Shown here one piece after another: positions 3,694-17,593 of a stretch of DNA of 64,000 bases. The notes beneath the pieces are model-generated. The model worked only from the letters and a program-made list of their open reading frames with translations. It had not been told where the DNA came from and made no database searches. Positions within the stretch are counted from its first letter, which is position 1, and every line of letters starts with the position of its first letter. The DNA lies in contig NZ_CP064782.1 of NCBI RefSeq assembly GCF_018905915.1, positions 1,798,001 through 1,862,000 of the forward strand, in the 5' to 3' direction. The position numbers were made by a program, and so were the translations under genes. Source of the stretch: Azospira inquinata (GTDB lineage Bacteria > Pseudomonadota > Gammaproteobacteria > Burkholderiales > Rhodocyclaceae).

Positions 3694-4526
3694 GCCAGAA
3701 ACCGGCCATTCTTACTCCCGATCCCTGGCAGTCCCTGCAAGGCCTGACCCAGGCCCGGGTGGCCCTGGGCCGGGCCGGGGTCAGCCTGCCCACCCGGGAA
3801 GTGCTGGGCTTTAGCACCGCCCATGCCCAGGCCCGGGATGCGGTGCATCTAGCCCTGGACGTGAACGGCCTGGCGGAGGAATTGCAGGAGGACGGCTTCC
3901 AGACCCTGGCGGTACGCAGCCAGGCGCCGGATCGGGCCACCTATCTGCGCCGCCCGGATTACGGCCGCCGCCTGGACCCGGCCTGTAGCGCCCAGCTCGC
4001 TGACCCCGGCCAGAACCGGTGGCCCCAGCCCCGCCGTCTGGCCCTGGTGGTGGCGGACGGCCTTTCCGCCTTGGCTACTCGCCGCCACACCCGAGCTTTT
4101 CTCGCTGCCCTCAAGGCCTACCTGCCCGATTTACCCAGCCAGCCCCTGGTGATCGCCACCCAGGCCCGGGTGGCCCTGGGGGACGAAATCGGCCACTGGC
4201 TCGGTGCCGAGCAGGTGGTGGTGCTGATCGGCGAACGTCCGGGCCTGTCTTCCCCGGACAGCCTGGGCCTGTATTTGACCGCCGGGCCCCGTCCCGGGCT
4301 CACGGACGCCCAGCGCAACTGCATTTCCAACGTGCGCCCGGAAGGGCTGCCCTATGCCGCCGCCGCCCGCAAGCTGGCCTTTCTCATTGAGGGGGCCCGC
4401 CGCCTTGGACGTACCGGCGTGGATCTCAAGGACGACAGCGATGCTCCGGCCCTGGTCGCTCCTGAGGCAGCACCGGCCCTGGCCGCCCCCCTTTCTCCCC
4501 CTTCTTTTTCAACCTTGAACCTTTAG
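3690..4526 (+). CDS. eutC: Ethanolamine ammonia-lyase light chain EutC
   Basis: Small subunit (278 residues) of ethanolamine ammonia-lyase. Together with EutB it forms the site that holds adenosylcobalamin. Family motifs are present: FSTAHAQARDAVH (about residue 34), TQARVALGDEIG, GERPGLSSPDSLGLYLT and RNCISNVRPEGLPYAAAARK. It is translationally coupled to eutB by an ATGA overlap. The last 30 or so residues are a low-complexity Ala/Pro-rich tail outside the conserved fold. The next gene begins only 11 bases downstream, so the operon continues. Confidence 0.96.
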   Translation: MSQKPAILTPDPWQSLQGLTQARVALGRAGVSLPTREVLGFSTAHAQARDAVHLALDVNGLAEELQEDGFQTLAVRSQAPDRATYLRRPDYGRRLDPACSAQLADPGQNRWPQPRRLALVVADGLSALATRRHTRAFLAALKAYLPDLPSQPLVIATQARVALGDEIGHWLGAEQVVVLIGERPGLSSPDSLGLYLTAGPRPGLTDAQRNCISNVRPEGLPYAAAARKLAFLIEGARRLGRTGVDLKDDSDAPALVAPEAAPALAAPLSPPSFSTLNL

Positions 4527-4537
4527 GAGATCACAGC

Positions 4538-5389
4538 ATGAGCTTCAATTTTTATGGACCGGGCGCCGCCGCCCTGCTCGCCAGCGCCTGCCTCGGTGGG
4601 GCGGCCACTCCCGCCCTGGCGGAGGGGGACAGCGCCTGGACCTTTCCGATCAATGTGAGTCTGGTCAGCGATTACATCTTTCGCGGCCAGTCCCAGACCT
4701 GGGGCAAACCCGCCCTCCAGATCAGTGCGGAAGCGGACCACGCCTCCGGCGCCTATGTGGGCACTGCCGTCTCCAACGTGTCCGATCACTGGCTGCCCGG
4801 CGCCACCACGGAACTGGACCTCTACGGGGGCTACCGCAACAAGCTCACCGAAGACATTGGCTATGACGTGGGCCTGATCTACTACACCTACCCGGGGGCC
4901 AACTGGAGCGACTCCGTGTTTAACGGCTTCAATGCTTCCAAGAGCCTCAATACCCAGGAAGCTTCCCTGGCCCTGAACTACAAGTGGTTGACCTTCAAGA
5001 CCGGTACCACCCTGACCGATTATTTCGGCTGGAGCACCAACAATTCCCCGGTCCATGGGGGCTTCAACGGGGATTCGGGGGCTGGGGTCACGGGCAGCAC
5101 CCGCTATTCCTCCTTTGTGGAATTCAATGCCGCTTATGAAGTGGTACCCGGGTGGACCTTGAATGGACAGATTGGCCGGCAAATGATCCGCAACTCCACT
5201 GGCCTGGATATCTCCTACTACAAGGCCGGCGTCACCCGGGCCTTGGCCGACGGCTGGACGGTGAGCGCGTCCTACTCGGCCACCAACGAACCGGCGGCTT
5301 ACAAGAACTTCCTGAGCCTGTCCAACGGCACCTCCTCCTCCGACATCGCCCAGAACCGGTTCTTTGTCAGCGTCAATAAGGCTTTCTGA
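4538..5389 (+). CDS. TorF-family putative outer-membrane porin
   Basis: A 283-residue exported protein. Residues 1-28 form a signal peptide ending in ALA, odd in having no Lys or Arg in its n-region. The mature part is rich in alternating aromatic and polar strands, contains the family-typical VSLVSDYIFRGQSQTWGKPA near its start, and ends in Phe (VNKAF), as expected of beta-barrel outer-membrane proteins. The family (TIGR02001-type) has no firmly assigned substrate. It starts 11 bases after eutC behind a good ribosome site (TAGGAG) and is followed by a strong terminator, so it is the last gene of the ethanolamine operon. A role in outer-membrane passage of ethanolamine is inference. Confidence 0.82.
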   Translation: MSFNFYGPGAAALLASACLGGAATPALAEGDSAWTFPINVSLVSDYIFRGQSQTWGKPALQISAEADHASGAYVGTAVSNVSDHWLPGATTELDLYGGYRNKLTEDIGYDVGLIYYTYPGANWSDSVFNGFNASKSLNTQEASLALNYKWLTFKTGTTLTDYFGWSTNNSPVHGGFNGDSGAGVTGSTRYSSFVEFNAAYEVVPGWTLNGQIGRQMIRNSTGLDISYYKAGVTRALADGWTVSASYSATNEPAAYKNFLSLSNGTSSSDIAQNRFFVSVNKAF

Positions 5390-5624: not shown

Positions 5625-6869
5625 TTATTCCCAGTTCAGCGCCCCTCCAGTCTGGTATTCCGTCACCCGGGTTTCAAAGAAGTTTTTCTCCTTGCGCAGA
5701 TTCACCTGTTCGTCCAGCCAGGGCACCACGTTGGCGGCGCCGGGAAAGGGCTCTTCCAGGCCCAGCTGGCGGGCCCGGCGGTTGGCGATGAAGCGGAACT
5801 GCTCCCGGTGCAGGTCGGCGCTGTAGCCCAGCATGGGTTCCTGGAACAGGTAGCCCGCGTAAGCGGATTCGGCCGCCTCCGCCTCGTCCCAAAGCAGGCG
5901 CAGGGCGGCGGGGTCGAGCTGGAGGTCTTCCTCCTGGATGAGCTGGCGCACCACCCGGATGCCGAAGCCGCAGTGCAGCACCTCGTCTCGCATGATGTAC
6001 TGGAGCTGTTCCGCCGTGCCCTTCATGAGGCCCCGCCGTTGCAGGGCGAAAATGGGGGTGAAGCCGTTGTAGAACCAGCAGCCCTCGAAAATGCCCGCGA
6101 AAAACAGGTAGGACAGGGCGAATTCGTGGAGGGTGTCCCGGTTGCCCATGTCCAGGCCGGAGCGCAGCACGGCATTGAGGCGCCGGTTGGAGAGGGCGAT
6201 TTTGCCGTGGATTTCCGGCACCACCCGGTAGCGGTTGTAAATCTCCCGCTGGTCCAGGTTCAGGGTTTCGATGCAGTGCTGGTAGGTCCAGGTGTGGAGA
6301 GATTCTTCGTAGACCTGGCGGGCCTGGTAGATCTGCAATTCCGGGGCGGTCATTTTTTCCATCACCGCCAGGCCGATATTGCGCATGGCCAGAATGTCGG
6401 AGGTGGTCAGGTAGGCCAGCACATTTTCAAAAACGTGGCGTTCCGCTGGGGTGAGCCGGTGGTGGTAATCCTGCACGTCCTGGGCCATGTTGATTTCCAG
6501 GGGCGTCCAGTGGTTGCGGTTGGCCTTGAGGAAATATTCCCAGGCCCAGGGGTACTTGAAGGGGGCCAGTTGGTTAATGTCGGCCCGGCCCCCCACCACC
6601 CGCTTGTCCTGGGGATCGATGGGGGCCAGGGCCGCCGGGTCTTCCCCCAAGGGGGGGAGGGCGTTGGCGGCGGGAATGGGGGGTGTCCGGGGGGCGGTGG
6701 CCTTGCCTGAGTCCGTTACCGGGCGTGCCGGAGCCTCTGTTTCCGGCGCCATGGCCCGGGGAGCACCGTGGACAGGGGTGGAAGCGACGGGGGCCGGGCT
6801 CTGGTCCCAATCCGCGAATAGGGTGTCGGGCCGGGCAGCGCCGGTCCGGGTGGGGGCGTTGGCGCTCAT
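5625..6869 (-). CDS. nrdB: Class Ia ribonucleotide reductase small subunit NrdB
   Basis: Beta subunit (414 residues) carrying the diiron centre and tyrosyl radical for aerobic deoxynucleotide synthesis. The metal and radical residues are visible: TTSD, then ESLHTWTYQH, where the Tyr four residues after the His is the radical Tyr, then GIFEGCWFY and MRDEVLH. The N-terminal 70 or so residues are a Pro/Ala-rich extension. I place the start at 6869 because this ATG overlaps the nrdA stop (ATGA); an ATG at 6884 is in frame but lies inside nrdA. Downstream of nrdA, it should share its cobalamin-riboswitch control by translational coupling. Confidence 0.96.
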   Translation of the reverse strand: MSANAPTRTGAARPDTLFADWDQSPAPVASTPVHGAPRAMAPETEAPARPVTDSGKATAPRTPPIPAANALPPLGEDPAALAPIDPQDKRVVGGRADINQLAPFKYPWAWEYFLKANRNHWTPLEINMAQDVQDYHHRLTPAERHVFENVLAYLTTSDILAMRNIGLAVMEKMTAPELQIYQARQVYEESLHTWTYQHCIETLNLDQREIYNRYRVVPEIHGKIALSNRRLNAVLRSGLDMGNRDTLHEFALSYLFFAGIFEGCWFYNGFTPIFALQRRGLMKGTAEQLQYIMRDEVLHCGFGIRVVRQLIQEEDLQLDPAALRLLWDEAEAAESAYAGYLFQEPMLGYSADLHREQFRFIANRRARQLGLEEPFPGAANVVPWLDEQVNLRKEKNFFETRVTEYQTGGALNWE

Positions 6870-9790
6870 TGGCAGGCCTCGCAATCCGGGTTGTCGATGG
6901 AACAGAATTTGGGGGCGGCCGGGGCCTCGGTTTCCCTTTCCTGCTCCCGGCGGCCGTCCGTGGTTTTTTCCGCCTGACTGGCCCCCAGGGTGCGCAGGTA
7001 ATAGGTGGTCTTCAGGCCCCGCAGCCAGGCCAGCTTGTAGAGTTCATCCAGCTTGCGACCGGACGGTGTGGCCAGATAGAGATTGAGGGACTGGGCCTGA
7101 TCGATCCATTTCTGGCGCCGGGAGGCCGCTTCCACCAGCCACACCGGGTCCATTTCAAAGGCCGTGGCGTAGCGGGCCTTGAGGTCTTCCGGCACCCGGT
7201 CGATGGGGGCCAGGGAACCGTCGAAATATTTCAGGTCCGCCACCATCATTTCGTCCCACAGGTCCAGGGCCTTCAAGTCCCGCACCAGGGCCGGATTGAC
7301 TACGGTAAATTCCCCGGAGAGGTTGGATTTGACGTAAAGGTTCTGGTAGTCCGGCTCTATGCCCTGGGAGACCCCCACAATGTTGGAAATGGTGGCGGTG
7401 GGGGCGATGGCCACGCAGTTGGAATTGCGCATGCCCTTGTCCAGCACCCGGCGGCGCAGGGCATCCCAATCCAGGGTCTGGTGCCGATCCACTTCCAGGA
7501 AATTCCGGGCCGGGTCGTCACTCAGATGGCTGCGGGCTTCCGCCAGCCGGTCCAGGGTGTCCGGAGGCAGAATGCCCTGGCTCCACAGGCTGCCCTGGTA
7601 GCTGGGATAGGTGCCCCGTTCTTCCGCCAGTTCGGTGGAGGTCCAGTAGGCGTGGTAGCACACCGCTTCCATGGATCGGTCGGCAAAGGCCACGGCCTCC
7701 GGGGAGGCGTAGGCCAGGCCCAGGGCGTGGAGGCAGTCGGCAAAGCCCATGATGCCCATGCCCACGGGGCGATGGCGCAGATTGGCGTTGCGCGCCTTGG
7801 GGGTGGCGTAATAGTTGAGGTCGATGACGTTGTCCAGCATGCGCAGGGCGGTGCGCACCGTGCGTTGCAGCTTTTCCTGGTCCAGGCCGCCCCGGGCTAC
7901 GTCCAGGTGGGCGGCCAGATTGATGGAGCCCAGATTGCAGACGGCGGTTTCCGTGGCCGAGGTGTTGAGGGTGATTTCGGTGCACAGGTTGGAACTGTGC
8001 ACTATCCCCTTGTGCTGCTGGGGCGAACGCAGATTGCAAGGGTCCTTGAAGGTGACCCAGGGATGGCCGGTTTCAAAGAGCATGGTGAGCATGCGGCGCC
8101 ACAGCTGGACGGCGGACACCTTCTTGAAATGCTTCAGCTCCCCCCGGGCGGCCCGGTCTTCGTAGGCCTGGTAGGCGGTGTCGAAATCCCAGCCGTATTT
8201 GTCGTGGAGGTCCGGGGTCTCGTCCGGGGAAAAGAGGGTCCATTCCCCCCCGGCCATGACCCGCTCCATGAACAGGTCCGGAATCCAGTGGGCGGTGTTC
8301 ATGTCGTGGGTGCGGCGCCGTTCGTCCCCGGTGTTTTTGCGCAGTTCCAGGAATTCCTCGATGTCCAGGTGCCAGGTTTCCAGGTAGGCACACACCGCCC
8401 CCTTGCGCTTGCCCCCCTGGTTCACCGCCACGGCGGTGTCATTGACCACCTTGAGGAAGGGAATCACCCCCTGGCTCTTGCCGTTGGTGCCCTTGATGCG
8501 GGCCCCCAGGGCCCGTACCGGGGTCCAGTCGTTGCCCAGGCCGCCGGCGTATTTTTGCAGCAGGGCGTTTTCCTTGACGGCCTGGTAAATGCCCTCCAGG
8601 TCGTCACTGGTGGTGGTCAGGTAGCAGGAGGAAAGCTGGGGATGGCGGGTGCCCGCGTTGAACAGGGTGGGGGTGGAGCACATGAAATCGAAGCGGGAGA
8701 GCAGGTGGTAAAACTCCACCGCCCGGGCCTCCCGATCCACCTCGTTCAAGGCCAGGCCCATGGCCACCCGCATGAAAAAGACCTGGGGCAGTTCAATGCG
8801 CCGTTCCTCGATGTGGAGGAAGTAGCGGTCATAAAGGGTTTGCAGCCCCAGGTAGGTGAATTGGAGATCCCGCTCCCCCTCCAGGGCGCAGGCCAGCTGG
8901 GTCAGGTCGAATTCCAGCAGGCGGGGGTCCAGGAGTTCCGCTGCCACCCCCAGGCGGATGAATTCGGGGAAATAGTCCCCGTAGCGCTGGGCCATGTCGG
9001 CCTGGAATACCTCTTCCCCCAGCACCTCCCGGCGCAGGGCGTGGAGTTGTAGGCGGGCCGTGGCCTGGTCATAGGCCGGGTCCCGCTCGATGAGGCTGCG
9101 GGCGGCCAGCACCAGGGCTTGATGCACCTCCGCCAGCTTCACCCCGTCATAGAGATTGCGCAGGGCCTGTTCCCAGATCAGGGCCGGGTCCGCGTCTGGC
9201 AATCCCTGGCAAGCGGCCTGGCAGAGGGCCAGCAGGGCCTGCCGGTCCAGGGGGCGGCGCACCGGGCCGTCCACCACGTGGAGCACCGGGGCTTCCTCTT
9301 CCCGGGGCTGGGCCTGGGCCGCCTGGGCGGCCCGTTCGGCGGCCCGCCGTTCCCGGTAGAGCACGTAGGCCCGGGCCACATCGTGTTCCCCGGCCCGCAT
9401 TAGGGCCAGTTCCACCTGATCCTGGATGTCTTCGATATGCACCGTGCCCCCGTCCGGGAGGCGGCGAGTGAGGGCCTGAATGGCGTCTCCGGTGAGGCGC
9501 AGCACCCGGTCCCGGATGCGGGCCGAGGCGGCCCCCTGGGCGCCGCTCACGGCGAGGAAGGCCTTGGTCATGGCCAGGGCGATTTTGTCCGGGTTAAAGG
9601 CCACCACGGCGCCGTTGCGGCGGATGACCTGGAGCCCCAGTACGGTCTGGCGACAGGACTCGGAGAGGGCCTGGAAGGCCAGGCCGAAGGGGCTGGTGGC
9701 GTTGGCCTCGGTCTCAGGGGCTGGGCCGGCGGTAATGCTGGAAGGTGGTAGAGATGGGCCCCGTTGGGCGGTGGAACTGGCTTGCTGCAT
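6866..9790 (-). CDS. nrdA: Class Ia ribonucleotide reductase large subunit NrdA
   Basis: Catalytic alpha subunit (974 residues) that reduces ribonucleoside diphosphates. An N-terminal ATP-cone is present (VIRRNGAVVAFNPDKIALAM onward), followed by the R1 domains. Active-site pieces are visible: HPQLSSCYLTT (first redox Cys), SSNLCTEI (radical Cys and Glu), TAVCNLGSIN (second redox Cys) and PTATISNIVG. The tail ends in CEAC, the shuttle cysteine pair. The start at 9790 is supported by GGGGAG six bases upstream; the open frame extends further upstream only through the leader. Expression is predicted to be repressed by cobalamin through the upstream riboswitch. Confidence 0.97.
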   Translation of the reverse strand: MQQASSTAQRGPSLPPSSITAGPAPETEANATSPFGLAFQALSESCRQTVLGLQVIRRNGAVVAFNPDKIALAMTKAFLAVSGAQGAASARIRDRVLRLTGDAIQALTRRLPDGGTVHIEDIQDQVELALMRAGEHDVARAYVLYRERRAAERAAQAAQAQPREEEAPVLHVVDGPVRRPLDRQALLALCQAACQGLPDADPALIWEQALRNLYDGVKLAEVHQALVLAARSLIERDPAYDQATARLQLHALRREVLGEEVFQADMAQRYGDYFPEFIRLGVAAELLDPRLLEFDLTQLACALEGERDLQFTYLGLQTLYDRYFLHIEERRIELPQVFFMRVAMGLALNEVDREARAVEFYHLLSRFDFMCSTPTLFNAGTRHPQLSSCYLTTTSDDLEGIYQAVKENALLQKYAGGLGNDWTPVRALGARIKGTNGKSQGVIPFLKVVNDTAVAVNQGGKRKGAVCAYLETWHLDIEEFLELRKNTGDERRRTHDMNTAHWIPDLFMERVMAGGEWTLFSPDETPDLHDKYGWDFDTAYQAYEDRAARGELKHFKKVSAVQLWRRMLTMLFETGHPWVTFKDPCNLRSPQQHKGIVHSSNLCTEITLNTSATETAVCNLGSINLAAHLDVARGGLDQEKLQRTVRTALRMLDNVIDLNYYATPKARNANLRHRPVGMGIMGFADCLHALGLAYASPEAVAFADRSMEAVCYHAYWTSTELAEERGTYPSYQGSLWSQGILPPDTLDRLAEARSHLSDDPARNFLEVDRHQTLDWDALRRRVLDKGMRNSNCVAIAPTATISNIVGVSQGIEPDYQNLYVKSNLSGEFTVVNPALVRDLKALDLWDEMMVADLKYFDGSLAPIDRVPEDLKARYATAFEMDPVWLVEAASRRQKWIDQAQSLNLYLATPSGRKLDELYKLAWLRGLKTTYYLRTLGASQAEKTTDGRREQERETEAPAAPKFCSIDNPDCEACQ

Positions 9791-9793
9791 GAA

Positions 9794-9823
9794 GACTCCC
9801 CGTATGCGAGCGGAACGGGGGTC
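9794..9823 (-). promoter_or_regulatory. Shine-Dalgarno-sequestering hairpin of nrdA
   Basis: On the minus strand GACCCCCG (9823-9816) can pair with CGGGGAGTC (9802-9794), giving eight base pairs with one bulged A across a 13-base loop. The 3' arm contains the GGGGAG ribosome site of nrdA. This is the expected expression platform for a riboswitch that works by blocking translation. There is no strong U-tract terminator between the riboswitch and nrdA. The pairing is seen in the sequence; its use as the switch is inference. Confidence 0.6.
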
Positions 9824-9942
9824 GGAGAAGGTCTGGAGCGGGCCGGAATGGGGCAGATAGCCCCGGGCACGGTTCCCGGGCGGACGGGCCGACCGGGCCA
9901 GCCTTCCGGGAGACACCCCGCTCCTGGTAAGCAAATGAACGT

Positions 9943-10148
9943 GGCGAGGGCAGGTCTCCTGGCTTGCGGGTCAATGTCGCCCGGCCTTGTTGCCACGAAC
10001 CTTCCCGGAAGAGGCTTCCAGTGGTTCGGGTCCGGCCGGGGACTCACCGCCTACAGTTGCGGGGGCAGCTCCGGAATGGGGCCCACCGGGGTGGGCGCCG
10101 CACCGGATTCCCTTTTACTTCCCCTTGGGGGGAACCGTCGCGTGGGGC
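9943..10148 (-). promoter_or_regulatory. Cobalamin (AdoCbl) riboswitch upstream of nrdA
   Basis: On the minus strand the leader carries the hallmarks of the cobalamin aptamer in order: AGGGAATCCGGTGC (about 10112-10099), GAGCTGCCCCCGCAACTGTA (about 10073-10054), TTCCGGGAAGGTTCGTGGCA, GGCCGGGCGACATTGACCCG, and the B12-box end AAGCCAGGAGACCTGCC (about 9965-9949). Binding of adenosylcobalamin should lower nrdAB expression. This class of riboswitch is known to control B12-independent isozymes, including ribonucleotide reductases, in other bacteria. Boundaries are approximate. Confidence 0.96.
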
Positions 10149-10150
10149 CT

Positions 10151-10179
10151 ATGTTGCCCCGGCCCCAGGATGACGTCAA
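10151..10179 (-). promoter_or_regulatory. Candidate nrdA promoter
   Basis: On the minus strand TTGACG (10179-10174) is followed after exactly 17 bases by CAACAT (10156-10151). The -35 is near consensus and the -10 is weak. Transcription would start at about 10144, just where the riboswitch begins, and the element lies between the gntR stop and the aptamer. The position fits well; the match alone is moderate. Confidence 0.5.
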
Positions 10180-10189
10180 GATTGAAATA

Positions 10190-10945
10190 CTAAATGTAGT
10201 GTGCTATCGGCGTATCGCCACTATAGGTAGTGGTTGTGGGCCGCTCTCCCCGGGGTGGGGGCGTGTTCCCCGTATCCCCACGGGATGGGACCGCCTGGGG
10301 CGTGGCGGGGCGAAAGCGGGGGGCATCCGCCCCCGCCAGATTGCCCAGGGCGGCGGCCCGTTCCCGGGCCAGACGCCGGGTCAGGCGGGTGGCCCCTTCC
10401 ACATCCCCCCGGGCCAGGCAGGGGCAGAGTTCCTCCTGGGCCGCGGTGAAAATGCTCTGATTGAGGCGTCGGAATTCCGGTCCCCAGCCCAGGAGCAGCT
10501 TGTCCCCCAGGGCCCGGATTACGTCTTCCAGATACAGATTGCCCGCCGATTCCATGAGCCGGTCGTAGAAGTTTTCCTCCGGCGCCTGGGGCCGGTCCTG
10601 ATGCAGGCCCAGGCCAAAGCCCCGGCGTCGGGCAGCCTGCTGGACGGTGAAGGTTTCCACTAGGGTGAGCACGGTGAGCAGCTCGTCCAGGTCCCGGGGG
10701 GAGAGGCGGGCCACGGTGCATTCCTGACGCACCCCGTTGCGCAGATGGATGCAGAGCAGGCCTTCGTGGGCCAGCACCTTCACTGCTTCCCGCACCGGGG
10801 TGCGGCTCACCCCGTATTCCCGGGCGATGGCCCCCTCGTCCAGGGGCGTGCCCGGCGCCAGCTGGTGCTTGAAAATGCGCTCCCGCAGGGAATCCGCAAT
10901 GCCTTCGTAGAGGGCGCGGGGGTGATCGTGGCGGTCCGTGTGCAT
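10190..10945 (-). CDS. GntR-family transcriptional regulator (FCD-like)
   Basis: A 251-residue regulator. The N-terminal winged helix (about residues 8-75) contains LDEGAIAREYGVSRTPVREA and VLAHEGLL, diagnostic of GntR. The central part is helical, as in the FadR/FCD effector domain, and the last 40 residues are low-complexity and probably disordered. The ATG at 10945 follows AGGAGA; a longer frame upstream lacks such a site. It is divergent from the ScfR-type regulator and lies directly upstream of the nrdA leader on the same strand. The effector is unknown. FCD members usually sense small organic acids or amino acids. Confidence 0.85.
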   Translation of the reverse strand: MHTDRHDHPRALYEGIADSLRERIFKHQLAPGTPLDEGAIAREYGVSRTPVREAVKVLAHEGLLCIHLRNGVRQECTVARLSPRDLDELLTVLTLVETFTVQQAARRRGFGLGLHQDRPQAPEENFYDRLMESAGNLYLEDVIRALGDKLLLGWGPEFRRLNQSIFTAAQEELCPCLARGDVEGATRLTRRLARERAAALGNLAGADAPRFRPATPQAVPSRGDTGNTPPPRGERPTTTTYSGDTPIAHYI

Positions 10946-12672: not shown

Positions 12673-14394
12673 CTAAAACAAGAAGTAGCGTTGGGACAGG
12701 GGCAGGGTCTGGGCGGGCTGGCAGGTGATGGGAACCCCGTCAATGCTGACTTCGTAGCTCACCGGGTCCACTTCCACGTGTGGCGTCAGGTCGTTGAGGC
12801 GCATGTCCTTTTTGCCCACGGTGCGGCAGTTTTTCACCGGCGCCACCAAGCGGTTCAGCCCCAGTTTTTCCCGGATGCCCCCTTCGTAGGCGGCGCCGGA
12901 GACGAAGGTGAAACAGCTGCGGGGGGCGGCCAGGCCGTAAGCGCCGAACATGGGCCGCATGATGACTGGCTGGGGCGTGGGGATGGAGGCGTTGGGGTCC
13001 CCCATTTTGGCGGCGGCAATGACCCCGCCTTTCAGCACGTAATCCGGTTTGACGCCGAACAGGGCCGGATTCCAGATCACCAGATCCGCCAGTTTCCCAG
13101 GCTCCAGGGAACCCACGTAGGTGGAGATGCCGTGGGTGATGGCTGGGTTGATGGTGTATTTGGCCACATAGCGCTTGGCGCGGAAGTTGTCGTTATCCTC
13201 CCCGGCGGCTTCCGGCAGCTGGCCCCGTTGTTTCTTCATTTTGTCGGCAGTCTGCCAGGCTCGGATGATGACTTCCCCCGGCCGTCCCATGGCCTGGGAA
13301 TCGGAGTTCAGGATAGATATGGCGCCCATGTCATGGAGCACATCTTCCGCCGCCAGGGTACCAAAGCGGATTCGGGACCGGGCGAAGGCCACGTCTTCCG
13401 GCAAGTGGGGGTCCAGGTGATGGCAGACCATGATCATGTCCAGATGCTCGTCGATCACGTTCTTGGTGAAAGGCATGGTAGGACTGGTGGAGGACGGCAT
13501 CACATTAGGGAATCCGGCGGCCTTGATAATGTCCGGCGCATGGCCACCGCCCGCCCCTTCCGTGTGATAGGTATGGATGGCCCTTCCGGCGATGGCGTTC
13601 ATGGTGCTTTCGAAATATCCGGCCTCGTTCAGGGTATCGGTGTGGATGCAGACCTGAACATCGTAGGCATCCGCCACCTGGAGACAGGTATGGATGGCGG
13701 CAGGAGTGCTGCCCCAGTCCTCATGCAGCTTCATACCGATGGCTCCGGCCCGGATTTGTTCTTCCAGGGGGGCGGGGGAAGCGCAGTTGCCCTTGCCGAG
13801 AAAGCCGAAATTCATGGGAAAGGCTTCCACCGCCTCCAGCATTTTTTGCAGATTGAATTCCCCGGGGGAGCAGGTGGTGGCATAGGTGCCCACGGCGGGG
13901 CCGACGCCGCCGCCGATCATGGTGGTCATTCCGGCGTAAAGGGAGGTTTCCACCTGTTGGGGGCAGATGTAATGGACATGGGTATCCACTCCGCCAGCGG
14001 TGACGATTTTGCCTTCCGCCGATACCACTTCCGTTCCGGCGCCCACTACCAGGGCCGGGTGTACCCCATCCATGATGTCTGGATTGCCCGACTTGCCGAT
14101 GGCGACGATCTTGCCTTCCTTGATGCCGATATCGGCCTTGACGATGCCCCAGTAGTCCAGAATCAGGGCATTGGTGAGCACCATGTCCAAAGCCCCGTTT
14201 TTGTTGGTCATGGCGGTGTTTTGCCCCATCCCGTCCCGGATGGTTTTACCGCCGCCGAATTTCATTTCGTCCCCGTAGGTGGTGTAGTCCCGCTCCACTG
14301 CGATGAACAGATCGGTATCGCCAAGGCGCACCTTGTCGCCCGTGCTGGGGCCGTACATGGCCGCATATTCCTGACTTGAAAGTTCCACGCTCAT
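12673..14394 (-). CDS. ureC: Urease alpha subunit UreC
   Basis: Catalytic subunit (573 residues) of nickel urease, which splits urea to ammonia and carbamate. Nickel and active-site segments are present: the HVHYICPQQ metal site, [12 protein letters not shown] with the Lys that becomes carbamylated, [26 protein letters not shown], and the flap [15 protein letters not shown] with its Cys and His. Length and both ends match the family. The start overlaps the ureB stop by four bases. It is the last gene of a ureA-ureB-ureC operon and converges with the ScfR-type gene 18 bases away. Confidence 0.98.
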
Positions 14395-15286: not shown

Positions 15287-17593
15287 CTAGCTAGCCTGGG
15301 GCGGGCAGGTGTTGGCCTGTTCCCGGAGTTCCCGAGCGGCGGCCACCATGTTGACCAGGGCGGGCAGGACTTCCTGCCATTGGCGGGTTTTCAGGCCGCA
15401 GTCCGGATTTACCCAGAGCCGCTCCCGGGGAATTCGCTGGGCGGCCCGGTTTATCAAGTCCTCCATGGCCTCCCGGGTAGGGATGCGGGGGGAGTGGATG
15501 TCATAGACTCCTGGACCGATGGCGTTGGGGTAGCGGAAGTTCTCGAAAGCCTCCAGCAATTCCATGTGGGAGCGGGAGGTTTCGATGGTGATCACATCCG
15601 CGTCCATCCGGGCGATGGCGGCGATGATGTCGTTGAATTCCGAGTAGCACATGTGGGTGTGGATCTGGGTCCGGTCTTCTACCCCGTTGGCCGCCAGCCG
15701 GTAGGCGTCCACGGCCCAGTCCAGGTAGCCTTGCCAGGCGCTGCGCCGCAGGGGCAGGCCTTCCCGCAGGGCCGCTTCGTCAATCTGGATAATGGGAATT
15801 CCTGCCCCCTCCAGGTCTTGCACTTCTTCCCGGATGGCCAGGGCAATCTGGCGGCAGGTGACGGCCCGGGGCTGGTCGTCCCGCACAAAGGACCAGTTGA
15901 GGATGGTCACCGGTCCGGTGAGCATGCCTTTCATGGGCTTTTCCGTGAGGGAGGCGGCGTAGGTGATCCACTCCACGGTCATGGGCCGGGGCCGGTACAC
16001 GTCGCCAAACAGGATCGGCGGTTTGACGCAGCGGGAACCGTAGGACTGAACCCAGCCGTTGCCGCTGAAGGCGAAACCTTCCAACTGCTCGCCGAAATAT
16101 TCCACCATGTCATTGCGTTCCCCTTCCCCGTGTACCAGCACGTCCAGGCCCAGGGCTTCCTGGGTGCGCACGGTGTAGGCGATTTCCTGGCGGATGCCTT
16201 CCCGGTAAGCGCTTTCCCCCAGATGTCCGGCCCGGAATTCCCGCCGCAGATGGCGGATTTCCTTGGTTTGGGGGAAGGAGCCGATGGTGGTGGTGGGGAA
16301 CAGGGGCAGGGCCAGCCGTGAGGCCTGCAAAGCCGCCCGCTGGGGGTAGGGACTCTGTCTTTCCCCCATGGCCGGGGTGATCCGGGCCAGGGTTTCCCCC
16401 ATCCAGGGTTGATGCACCCGGGAAGACGCCTGGCGGGACGCCCAGGCGGCCCGGGCAGCCGCCAGCCCCGGGGCCACGGCCCCTTCCCCTTGGTTCATGG
16501 CGGTAGCCAGGAGGCTAAGCTCCTCCAGCTTTTGCTGGGCGAAGGCCAGCCAGGATTTCACTTCCCCATCCAGGGCCGTTTCCGGTGTCACGTCCAGGGG
16601 CACATGGAGGAGAGAACAAGACGGGGCCAGCCACAGGCTGCGCCGGGGGCCGGCCTGGAGGCGACCCAGGGTTTCCAGCACTCCGTCCGGATTGCAGCGC
16701 CAGATATTGCGCCCGTCGATCAGTCCCAGGGAAAGCACCTTGTGGGCGGGCAGCCAGTCCGCCACCGTCGCCACTTCCTCCGGCGCCCGCACAGCGTCGA
16801 TGTGCAGCCCTTGGACCGGCAGGCGGCAGGCCAGATTGAGCTGATCCTGTAAGGGGGAAAAGTAGGTGGCAAGCAACAGCTGGGGGCCACCCGTCAGGCG
16901 GGCATAGGCGGGCTCGAAGGCCTGGCGCCATTCCGGGGGCAATTCCAGGCCCAAGATGGGCTCATCCAGCTGGACCCAGGTCACCCCCATGGCTTTTAGC
17001 CGGGCCAGGATTTGGCCGTAGACCGGCAGCAGCCGTTCCAGCAGGGAGAGGCGGTGGAAATGGGGCCCCCGGACTTTGCCTAGCCAGAGGAAGGTGAGGG
17101 GCCCGAGCAGGGCCACTTTAACCGGATGGCCCAGGGCCTGGGCCTCTGCTACCTCCTCAAACAGGCGTTGGCTGCCCAGCTGGAAGCAGGTGTCCGGTGT
17201 CCACTCCGGGACTAGGTAGTGGTAGTTGGTGTCGAACCACTTGGTCATTTCCAGGGCCGCCGCCCCCGGTTCCGTTCCCCGAGCGGCCCGGCCCCGGGCC
17301 AAAGTGAAATAGCGGTCCAGTTCCTCCGTTTCCGGGCGGAAGGCAAAACGGGCAGGTTCGCAGCCCAGGAGCTGGATATGGTTGGCCACGTGGTCGTAGA
17401 AGGCAAAGTCCCCCACGGTCACCCAGTCCAGCCCGGCTTCCCGTTGCAGAGCCCAGTGCCGGGCACGGAGTTCCCGCCCCACCCGTTCCAGGTCGGAGGG
17501 CTGGGTCTCTCCCCGCCAGTAGGCTTCCAGGGCGAATTTCAATTCCCGTTGGGCGCCCATACGGGGAAAGCCCAGGATATGGGTGGCGATCAT
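15287..17593 (-). CDS. metE: Cobalamin-independent methionine synthase MetE
   Basis: A 768-residue zinc enzyme that transfers methyl from 5-methyltetrahydropteroyltri-glutamate to homocysteine without B12. The N-terminus [18 protein letters not shown] is canonical. Zinc ligands lie in [10 protein letters not shown] (His and Cys) and NPDCGLKTR (Cys), and [19 protein letters not shown] and GPVTIL are family blocks. Length is normal. It is divergent from metR, its expected activator, and closed by a terminator. Unlike nrdAB here it has no cobalamin riboswitch: only 93 bases separate it from metR. Confidence 0.98.

Follow-up and report, generated by a model that had tools for sequence, protein, structure and literature searches.

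How does a cobalamin sensor come to govern a ribonucleotide reductase that has no need of B12, and by what route does it reach the ribosome? The question is raised by a locus of Azospira inquinata in which a cobalamin aptamer lies directly upstream of the reductase genes nrdA and nrdB. The window analyzed is a whole stretch of 64,000 nucleotides (nt) of contig NZ_CP064782.1, positions 1,798,001 to 1,862,000; coordinates below are those of the window, and features are on the minus strand unless stated otherwise. The answer that we consider quite probable is that the riboswitch represses translation of nrdAB when adenosylcobalamin is plentiful, the cell then relying on the B12-dependent reductase NrdJ, and that a hairpin, P13, with its loop L13 couples the aptamer to the ribosome site as an antisequestor.

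The aptamer and the two reductases

By its sequence, the element before this class Ia nrdAB operon is a genuine cobalamin riboswitch. The RF00174 match at 9932–10154 spans the full model (1–189) with 105.8 bits and an E-value of 1.8e-25, against a cut-off of 31.5 bits. It is one of three such matches in the genome (108.7, 105.8 and 83.3 bits). The B12 box, AGCCAGGAGACCTGCC, is at 9949–9964. The motif CCCCGC in loop L5 (10059–10064) is complementary to GCGGGG in L13 (9921–9916), as would be required for a kissing loop. Both motifs are present in all 28 riboswitch-bearing nrdA leaders compared below, with the L5 motif in the same place in each. The initial annotation had picked out the conserved aptamer segments and had proposed searches with RF00174 and for nrdJ; both searches returned matches above cut-off, that for NrdJ elsewhere in the genome at 599.1 bits (NrdJ_Z, cut-off 399.95).

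The gene for the large subunit, nrdA, occupies 6866–9790 (PRK07207, 1652.8 bits; ATG at 9790–9788), and nrdB, for the small subunit, occupies 5625–6869 (PRK07209, 339.7 bits). As first annotated, the stop of nrdA and the start of nrdB overlap in ATGA (6869–6866). NrdA has one ATP-cone match (72.7 bits), and among solved structures its best-scoring relative is 5im3 (1294.2 bits). NrdB has a tyrosine at the column where chain 1syy has phenylalanine, which we take to be the radical tyrosine. Class Ia is a reasonable assignment on these features. Since both NrdAB and NrdJ are matched, two reductases with opposite B12 needs coexist in one genome, which also encodes MetH (1699.7 bits). B12 elements on NrdDG (PMC545781) and on Streptomyces nrdABS (title cited in PMC5962746) were described against the same background. 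For a class III reductase, one model (NF006732) was searched, and its sole match was the ATP-cone of the window's nrdA, below cut-off.

No intrinsic terminator was predicted in 9700–10400. Together with the aptamer score, the presence of NrdJ, and the retention of the aptamer throughout one NrdA clade, this makes it most likely that the switch is an OFF switch acting on translation. The ligand response, its direction, its translational level and the coupling to nrdB are what we infer from these points.

The comparisons that follow use 29 riboswitch loci, counted after duplicate removal and including the window. For leader analyses, 28 of these were used (L134 was dropped for having no start with a Shine–Dalgarno sequence), together with 71 of 74 riboswitch-free nrdA loci (L046, L053 and L070 were dropped likewise).

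From the aptamer to the ribosome site

Right before nrdA is a hairpin at 9823–9794 whose 3' arm contains the Shine–Dalgarno sequence GGGGAG (9801–9796). The initial annotation had described a hairpin of eight pairs hiding the ribosome site; the hairpin and the position of its 3' arm stand, while the count becomes nine pairs with one bulged A, at −13.2 kcal/mol. The same annotation had overlooked a second hairpin placed between the aptamer and the ribosome site. This is P13 (9906–9927), which displays GCGGGG in its loop, L13, and whose strand 9924–9915 is the proposed antisequestor. GCGGGG follows the B12 box on its 3' side in 28/28 leaders at a median of 26 nt (range 23–83). The candidate partner is an anti-Shine–Dalgarno segment, ACCCCCGUUCC, at 9812–9822, which in folding with and without an L13 mask pairs with L13/P13 or, through its 5' part, with the Shine–Dalgarno sequence. 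By eye, the window's GGAGCGGGGU can pair with ACCCCCGUUCC with one bulged C and one G–U pair, and the helix also occurs in predicted folds. In several relatives the C-rich segment beside the Shine–Dalgarno sequence is CUCCGCCCC, which can likewise pair either there or with the P13 5' arm and L13.

The mechanism would run as follows. In the bound state, L5 of the aptamer would kiss L13 and so occupy P13/L13. The C-rich segment at 9822–9812 would then be left to pair with the Shine–Dalgarno sequence in the hairpin 9823–9794, and nrdA would be silent; nrdB may be silenced too via the ATGA overlap. In the free state, the P13 5' arm and L13 would pair with the C-rich segment and free the Shine–Dalgarno sequence.

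Masking L13 in folding calculations mimics its occupation. Under the mask, the C-rich segment paired with the Shine–Dalgarno sequence at 0.81–0.83 in 12/12 length variants of the window leader, up from 0.03–0.64, and Shine–Dalgarno exposure in the same variants fell from 0.21–0.50 to 0.16–0.17. With the aptamer included, both variants reached a pairing of 0.83, one starting from 0.67 and the other from 0.16. Across the 28 leaders the mask lowered exposure by more than 0.1 in nine and raised it by that much in none, and random masks in the linker had a smaller effect on exposure than the L13 mask. The partner is also found where it would be needed: 24/28 riboswitch leaders, versus 12/71 riboswitch-free ones, carry a near-complement of GGCGGGG no more than 35 nt from the Shine–Dalgarno sequence, and shuffled leaders gave a mean of 14.8/28 and a maximum of 21/28 in 500 shuffles. 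The initial annotation had called the distance from the aptamer to the masking hairpin, about 130 bases, longer than in compact switches. From the end of the B12 box to the start codon it is 158 nt in the window, against a median of 170.5 nt (range 126–490) over the 28 leaders, and is thus ordinary for the group.

A number of results count against this reading. The hairpin 9823–9794, folded on its own, has z −2.20 (6/200 shuffles equal or better), but in a 60 nt context z is −0.41 (59/200 as good), and the window's Shine–Dalgarno pairing of 0.80 was matched by 27/40 leaders in which the upstream part had been shuffled. Since shuffles are so often as good, the hairpin in this C-rich leader exists but does not by itself exceed chance. 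Over the 28-leader set it does, though not for the window leader alone: mean Shine–Dalgarno pairing is 0.85 versus 0.57 in the 71 riboswitch-free leaders, and correcting every leader by its own shuffles leaves the difference at p 0.008. For P13, the leaders' own pairs with the anti-Shine–Dalgarno segment were not significantly better than swapped ones (514/5000 permutations as good; 925/5000 in the swap test on 24 representatives), and the duplex beat 95% of its own dinucleotide shuffles in only 6/28 leaders. The window's best duplex with a 15-nt probe falls farther upstream than the anti-Shine–Dalgarno segment, and the folding energy of P13 alone is not beyond chance (107/200 shuffles as good). 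In one setting the window's exposure moved the wrong way, from 0.12 free to 0.20 masked. With 45 nt of nrdA it was 0.19 free versus 0.17 masked, barely a shift because other pairings then occupy the Shine–Dalgarno sequence. C content is 0.39 in the riboswitch leaders versus 0.26 in the riboswitch-free ones, and many of the leaders are kin. With published precedents on one side and nonsignificant covariation on the other, P13/L13 is a plausible antisequestor, a good hypothesis rather than a demonstrated element; as the link from aptamer to ribosome site, it is the likely candidate in these models.

Pairing of the Shine–Dalgarno sequence with the P13 3' arm was also considered and dropped, as by eye it is not common to the relatives. 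For the family's cobalamin riboswitches on genes other than nrdA, 22 of 26 loci could be used (no start was found in four). A near-complement by the Shine–Dalgarno sequence occurs in 9/22, against a shuffled mean of 5.7, with 34/500 shuffled sets as high, so beyond nrdA the feature would be general at most weakly. Several leaders of other genes, L093, L100, L105, L107 and L113 among them, have, by eye, a GCGGGGAC element just 5' of the Shine–Dalgarno sequence. This suggests a second platform type in the family, with an L13-like loop at the ribosome site.

The NrdA clade and the region upstream of the aptamer

In 16/80 nrdA loci from named genomes, aptamer motifs precede the match by no more than 500 nt. 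A cmscan of six loci, four of these 16 (L004, L007, L019 and L026) and two others (L129 and L141), found RF00174 in 6/6; the remaining 12 of the 16 motif-positive loci rest on the motifs. In a further locus, L014, the motifs are about 870 nt upstream of nrdA with a 190-amino-acid reading frame between (L014 4320–4892), and it was left out of both leader sets. In the family, this nrdA type is found at E 1e-200 or better in 26/61 genomes; in 15 of these, as judged from coordinates matched by eye, RF00174 precedes the gene by about 500 nt or less. NrdJ was rejected as a predictor of the riboswitch, a point that also weighs on the negative side: it exceeds the cut-off in all 15 riboswitch genomes, in nine of the 11 others (G002 has two pieces below the cut-off, G040 none), and in 57/61 family genomes.

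The distribution follows the enzyme instead. In a rapidly built, unrooted maximum-likelihood tree of 101 NrdA sequences, made without bootstrap, 27 riboswitch rows (L010 and L025 were dropped for a short frame) plus L014 are split from the 73 others by a branch with a Shimodaira–Hasegawa-like approximate likelihood ratio support (SH-aLRT) of 99. The riboswitch state requires two changes on this tree versus 23.8 in shuffles. Members are rows of the Rhodocyclaceae, Zoogloeaceae, Azonexaceae, Methylophilaceae and Methylococcaceae. On these sequences the riboswitch follows one NrdA clade, and its spread may reflect joint transfer of riboswitch and nrdAB between lineages. Somewhat short of an even chance, in our estimate, is the fuller proposition that one beta-/gammaproteobacterial NrdA clade carries a fixed module, passed between lineages with nrdAB, of NrdR boxes, a promoter at the aptamer edge, the B12 aptamer, and a movable P13/L13 antisequestor acting on a Shine–Dalgarno hairpin about 90 nt away. 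Open-licence papers, supplementary tables not covered, yielded no description of such a beta/gamma riboswitch–nrdA clade.

Some loci are peculiar in other ways. Two contigs of the metagenome-assembled genome WQYQ01 (L015 and L027) have two nrdA genes that fall in the two different clades, just one of them with the riboswitch. L141 has a back-to-back pair of cobalamin aptamers, one at 4398–4589 (minus) and one at 4651–4861 (plus). In L004, from Azospira oryzae, a second cobalamin aptamer at 9072–9325 (plus, 90.4 bits) follows the nrdA match about 1.3 kb farther downstream.

The initial annotation had placed a promoter at the 5' edge of the aptamer. The candidate, TTGACG-17-CAACAT at 10151–10179, has a weak −10 and fails a consensus promoter scan, and the proposal gains from the relatives: a similar layout at the edge of the aptamer is found in 20/28 leaders including the window (shuffled mean 3.3, maximum 10), and TTGAC followed after 17 or 18 nt by a YAnnnT box is found in 18/28 (shuffled mean 0.2). 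Farther upstream are two NrdR-like boxes that had been overlooked, at 10218–10233 (12 of 16 positions) and 10187–10202 (13 of 16). They are 31 bp apart and, scored against an NrdR consensus, are the only sites of at least 12 in the 64 kb. The genome has an NrdR gene (189.3 bits). NrdR is described as binding a pair of boxes separated by about three helical turns (PMC9110341), and the spacing here is consistent with that. Box pairs scoring at least 24 of 32 lie upstream in 9/28 riboswitch leaders versus 44/71 controls; the boxes are thus not peculiar to the riboswitch clade, most of which has lower scores. By these matches nrdAB is probably under dual control, with NrdR as a second, transcriptional layer over the riboswitch. 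A GntR-type regulator frame at 10190–10945 (Pfam GntR, 58.8 bits) overlaps both NrdR-like boxes with its 3' end.

Elsewhere in the window is metE, for the B12-independent methionine synthase (15287–17593, 1140.4 bits), with metH elsewhere in the genome. As the window's sole RF00174 match precedes nrdA, metE has no cobalamin aptamer in front of it. The Rfam 5'ureB small RNA family RF02514 matches at 13944–14237 (plus, 115.3 bits), antisense inside a urease alpha-subunit-like frame (12673–14394, minus). We did not keep it as an RNA gene; it probably reflects coding conservation of the urease gene.

Alternative readings and known systems

The same OFF switch could operate with the Shine–Dalgarno hairpin as its sole downstream part, P13/L13 only clamping the bound aptamer and coupling passing through other linker helices or steric effects. 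The nonsignificant covariation between P13 and the anti-Shine–Dalgarno segment would be expected if this were so, and the unconstrained full leader with 20 nt of nrdA already favours the hairpin (0.67). A mere clamp would leave unexplained, however, both the L13 complement beside the Shine–Dalgarno sequence, at a count that none of the 500 shuffles reached, and the shift of predicted folds upon L13 masking; we regard it as unlikely. Less likely still is that B12 acts mainly on transcript level, the bound leader promoting Rho-dependent termination in the long linker, with the hairpin secondary. The linker from P13 to the hairpin is indeed about 85 nt and C-rich, PMC11260477 speaks in general terms of Rho being coupled to translational switches, and the title cited in PMC5962746 presents the Streptomyces nrdABS switch as control of transcription. 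Yet the conserved C-rich element sits at the Shine–Dalgarno sequence, and no intrinsic terminator is predicted, Rho sites themselves not having been searched.

It would be surprising if the aptamer were a relic, or its response negligible, with nrdAB set mainly by NrdR. The NrdR-like boxes, the presence of NrdR, and a window hairpin no better in context than shuffles are what such a reading can draw on. It has to contend with a full-length, high-scoring aptamer whose L5, B12 box and L13 are intact, and with retention of the aptamer across a diverged NrdA clade.

The proposed translational switch with a P13/L13 antisequestor has relatives among known systems. The initial annotation had stated that riboswitch control of B12-independent isozymes is established elsewhere, and the literature agrees. 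A cobalamin riboswitch on Streptomyces nrdABS (Borovok et al. 2006, cited in PMC5962746) also precedes a class Ia nrdAB operon, and Streptomyces ribonucleotide reductase operons likewise carry NrdR boxes (PMC9110341); that switch is actinobacterial and by its title acts on transcription, whereas the window's is proteobacterial and looks translational. In delta-proteobacteria, B12 elements precede NrdDG with NrdJ in the same genomes (PMC545781). There too a B12-independent reductase is under a B12 element, with the same proposed logic, but the enzyme is class III rather than class Ia. Isozymes of B12 enzymes are given as a regulon class in PMC3766115, the main text of which does not name reductases.

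For the platform, the nearest precedent by analogy is metE of Mycobacterium tuberculosis (PMC11260477). It is described as translational, with L5–L13 kissing, a distinct aptamer and platform, and an L13 that overlaps the anti-anti-initiation sequence, the free-state strand holding the anti-initiation strand. Its strands are about 60 nt apart versus about 90 nt in the window, the gene is a different one, and it has been probed by experiment. The platform of Priestia megaterium metE has a competing P13 strand, which there forms the antiterminator (PMC10653944). L5–L13 kissing also represses translation in env8 (PMC10907184) and Escherichia coli btuB (PMC10653944); in env8 the ribosome site is inside the P13 loop, whereas P13 and the Shine–Dalgarno hairpin are separate in the window. 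The step from aptamer to ribosome site in corrinoid riboswitches is termed unknown in PMC10653944.

B12-riboswitch control of B12-independent reductases was known; what may be added is this lineage's possible wiring of the switch to the ribosome site, a route that can be tested by mutation. The locus would extend to a proteobacterial class Ia nrdAB the rule by which the supply of B12 determines the choice of ribonucleotide reductase. With the riboswitch confined to one clade of the enzyme, the case can also help to find out whether switch and gene move together.

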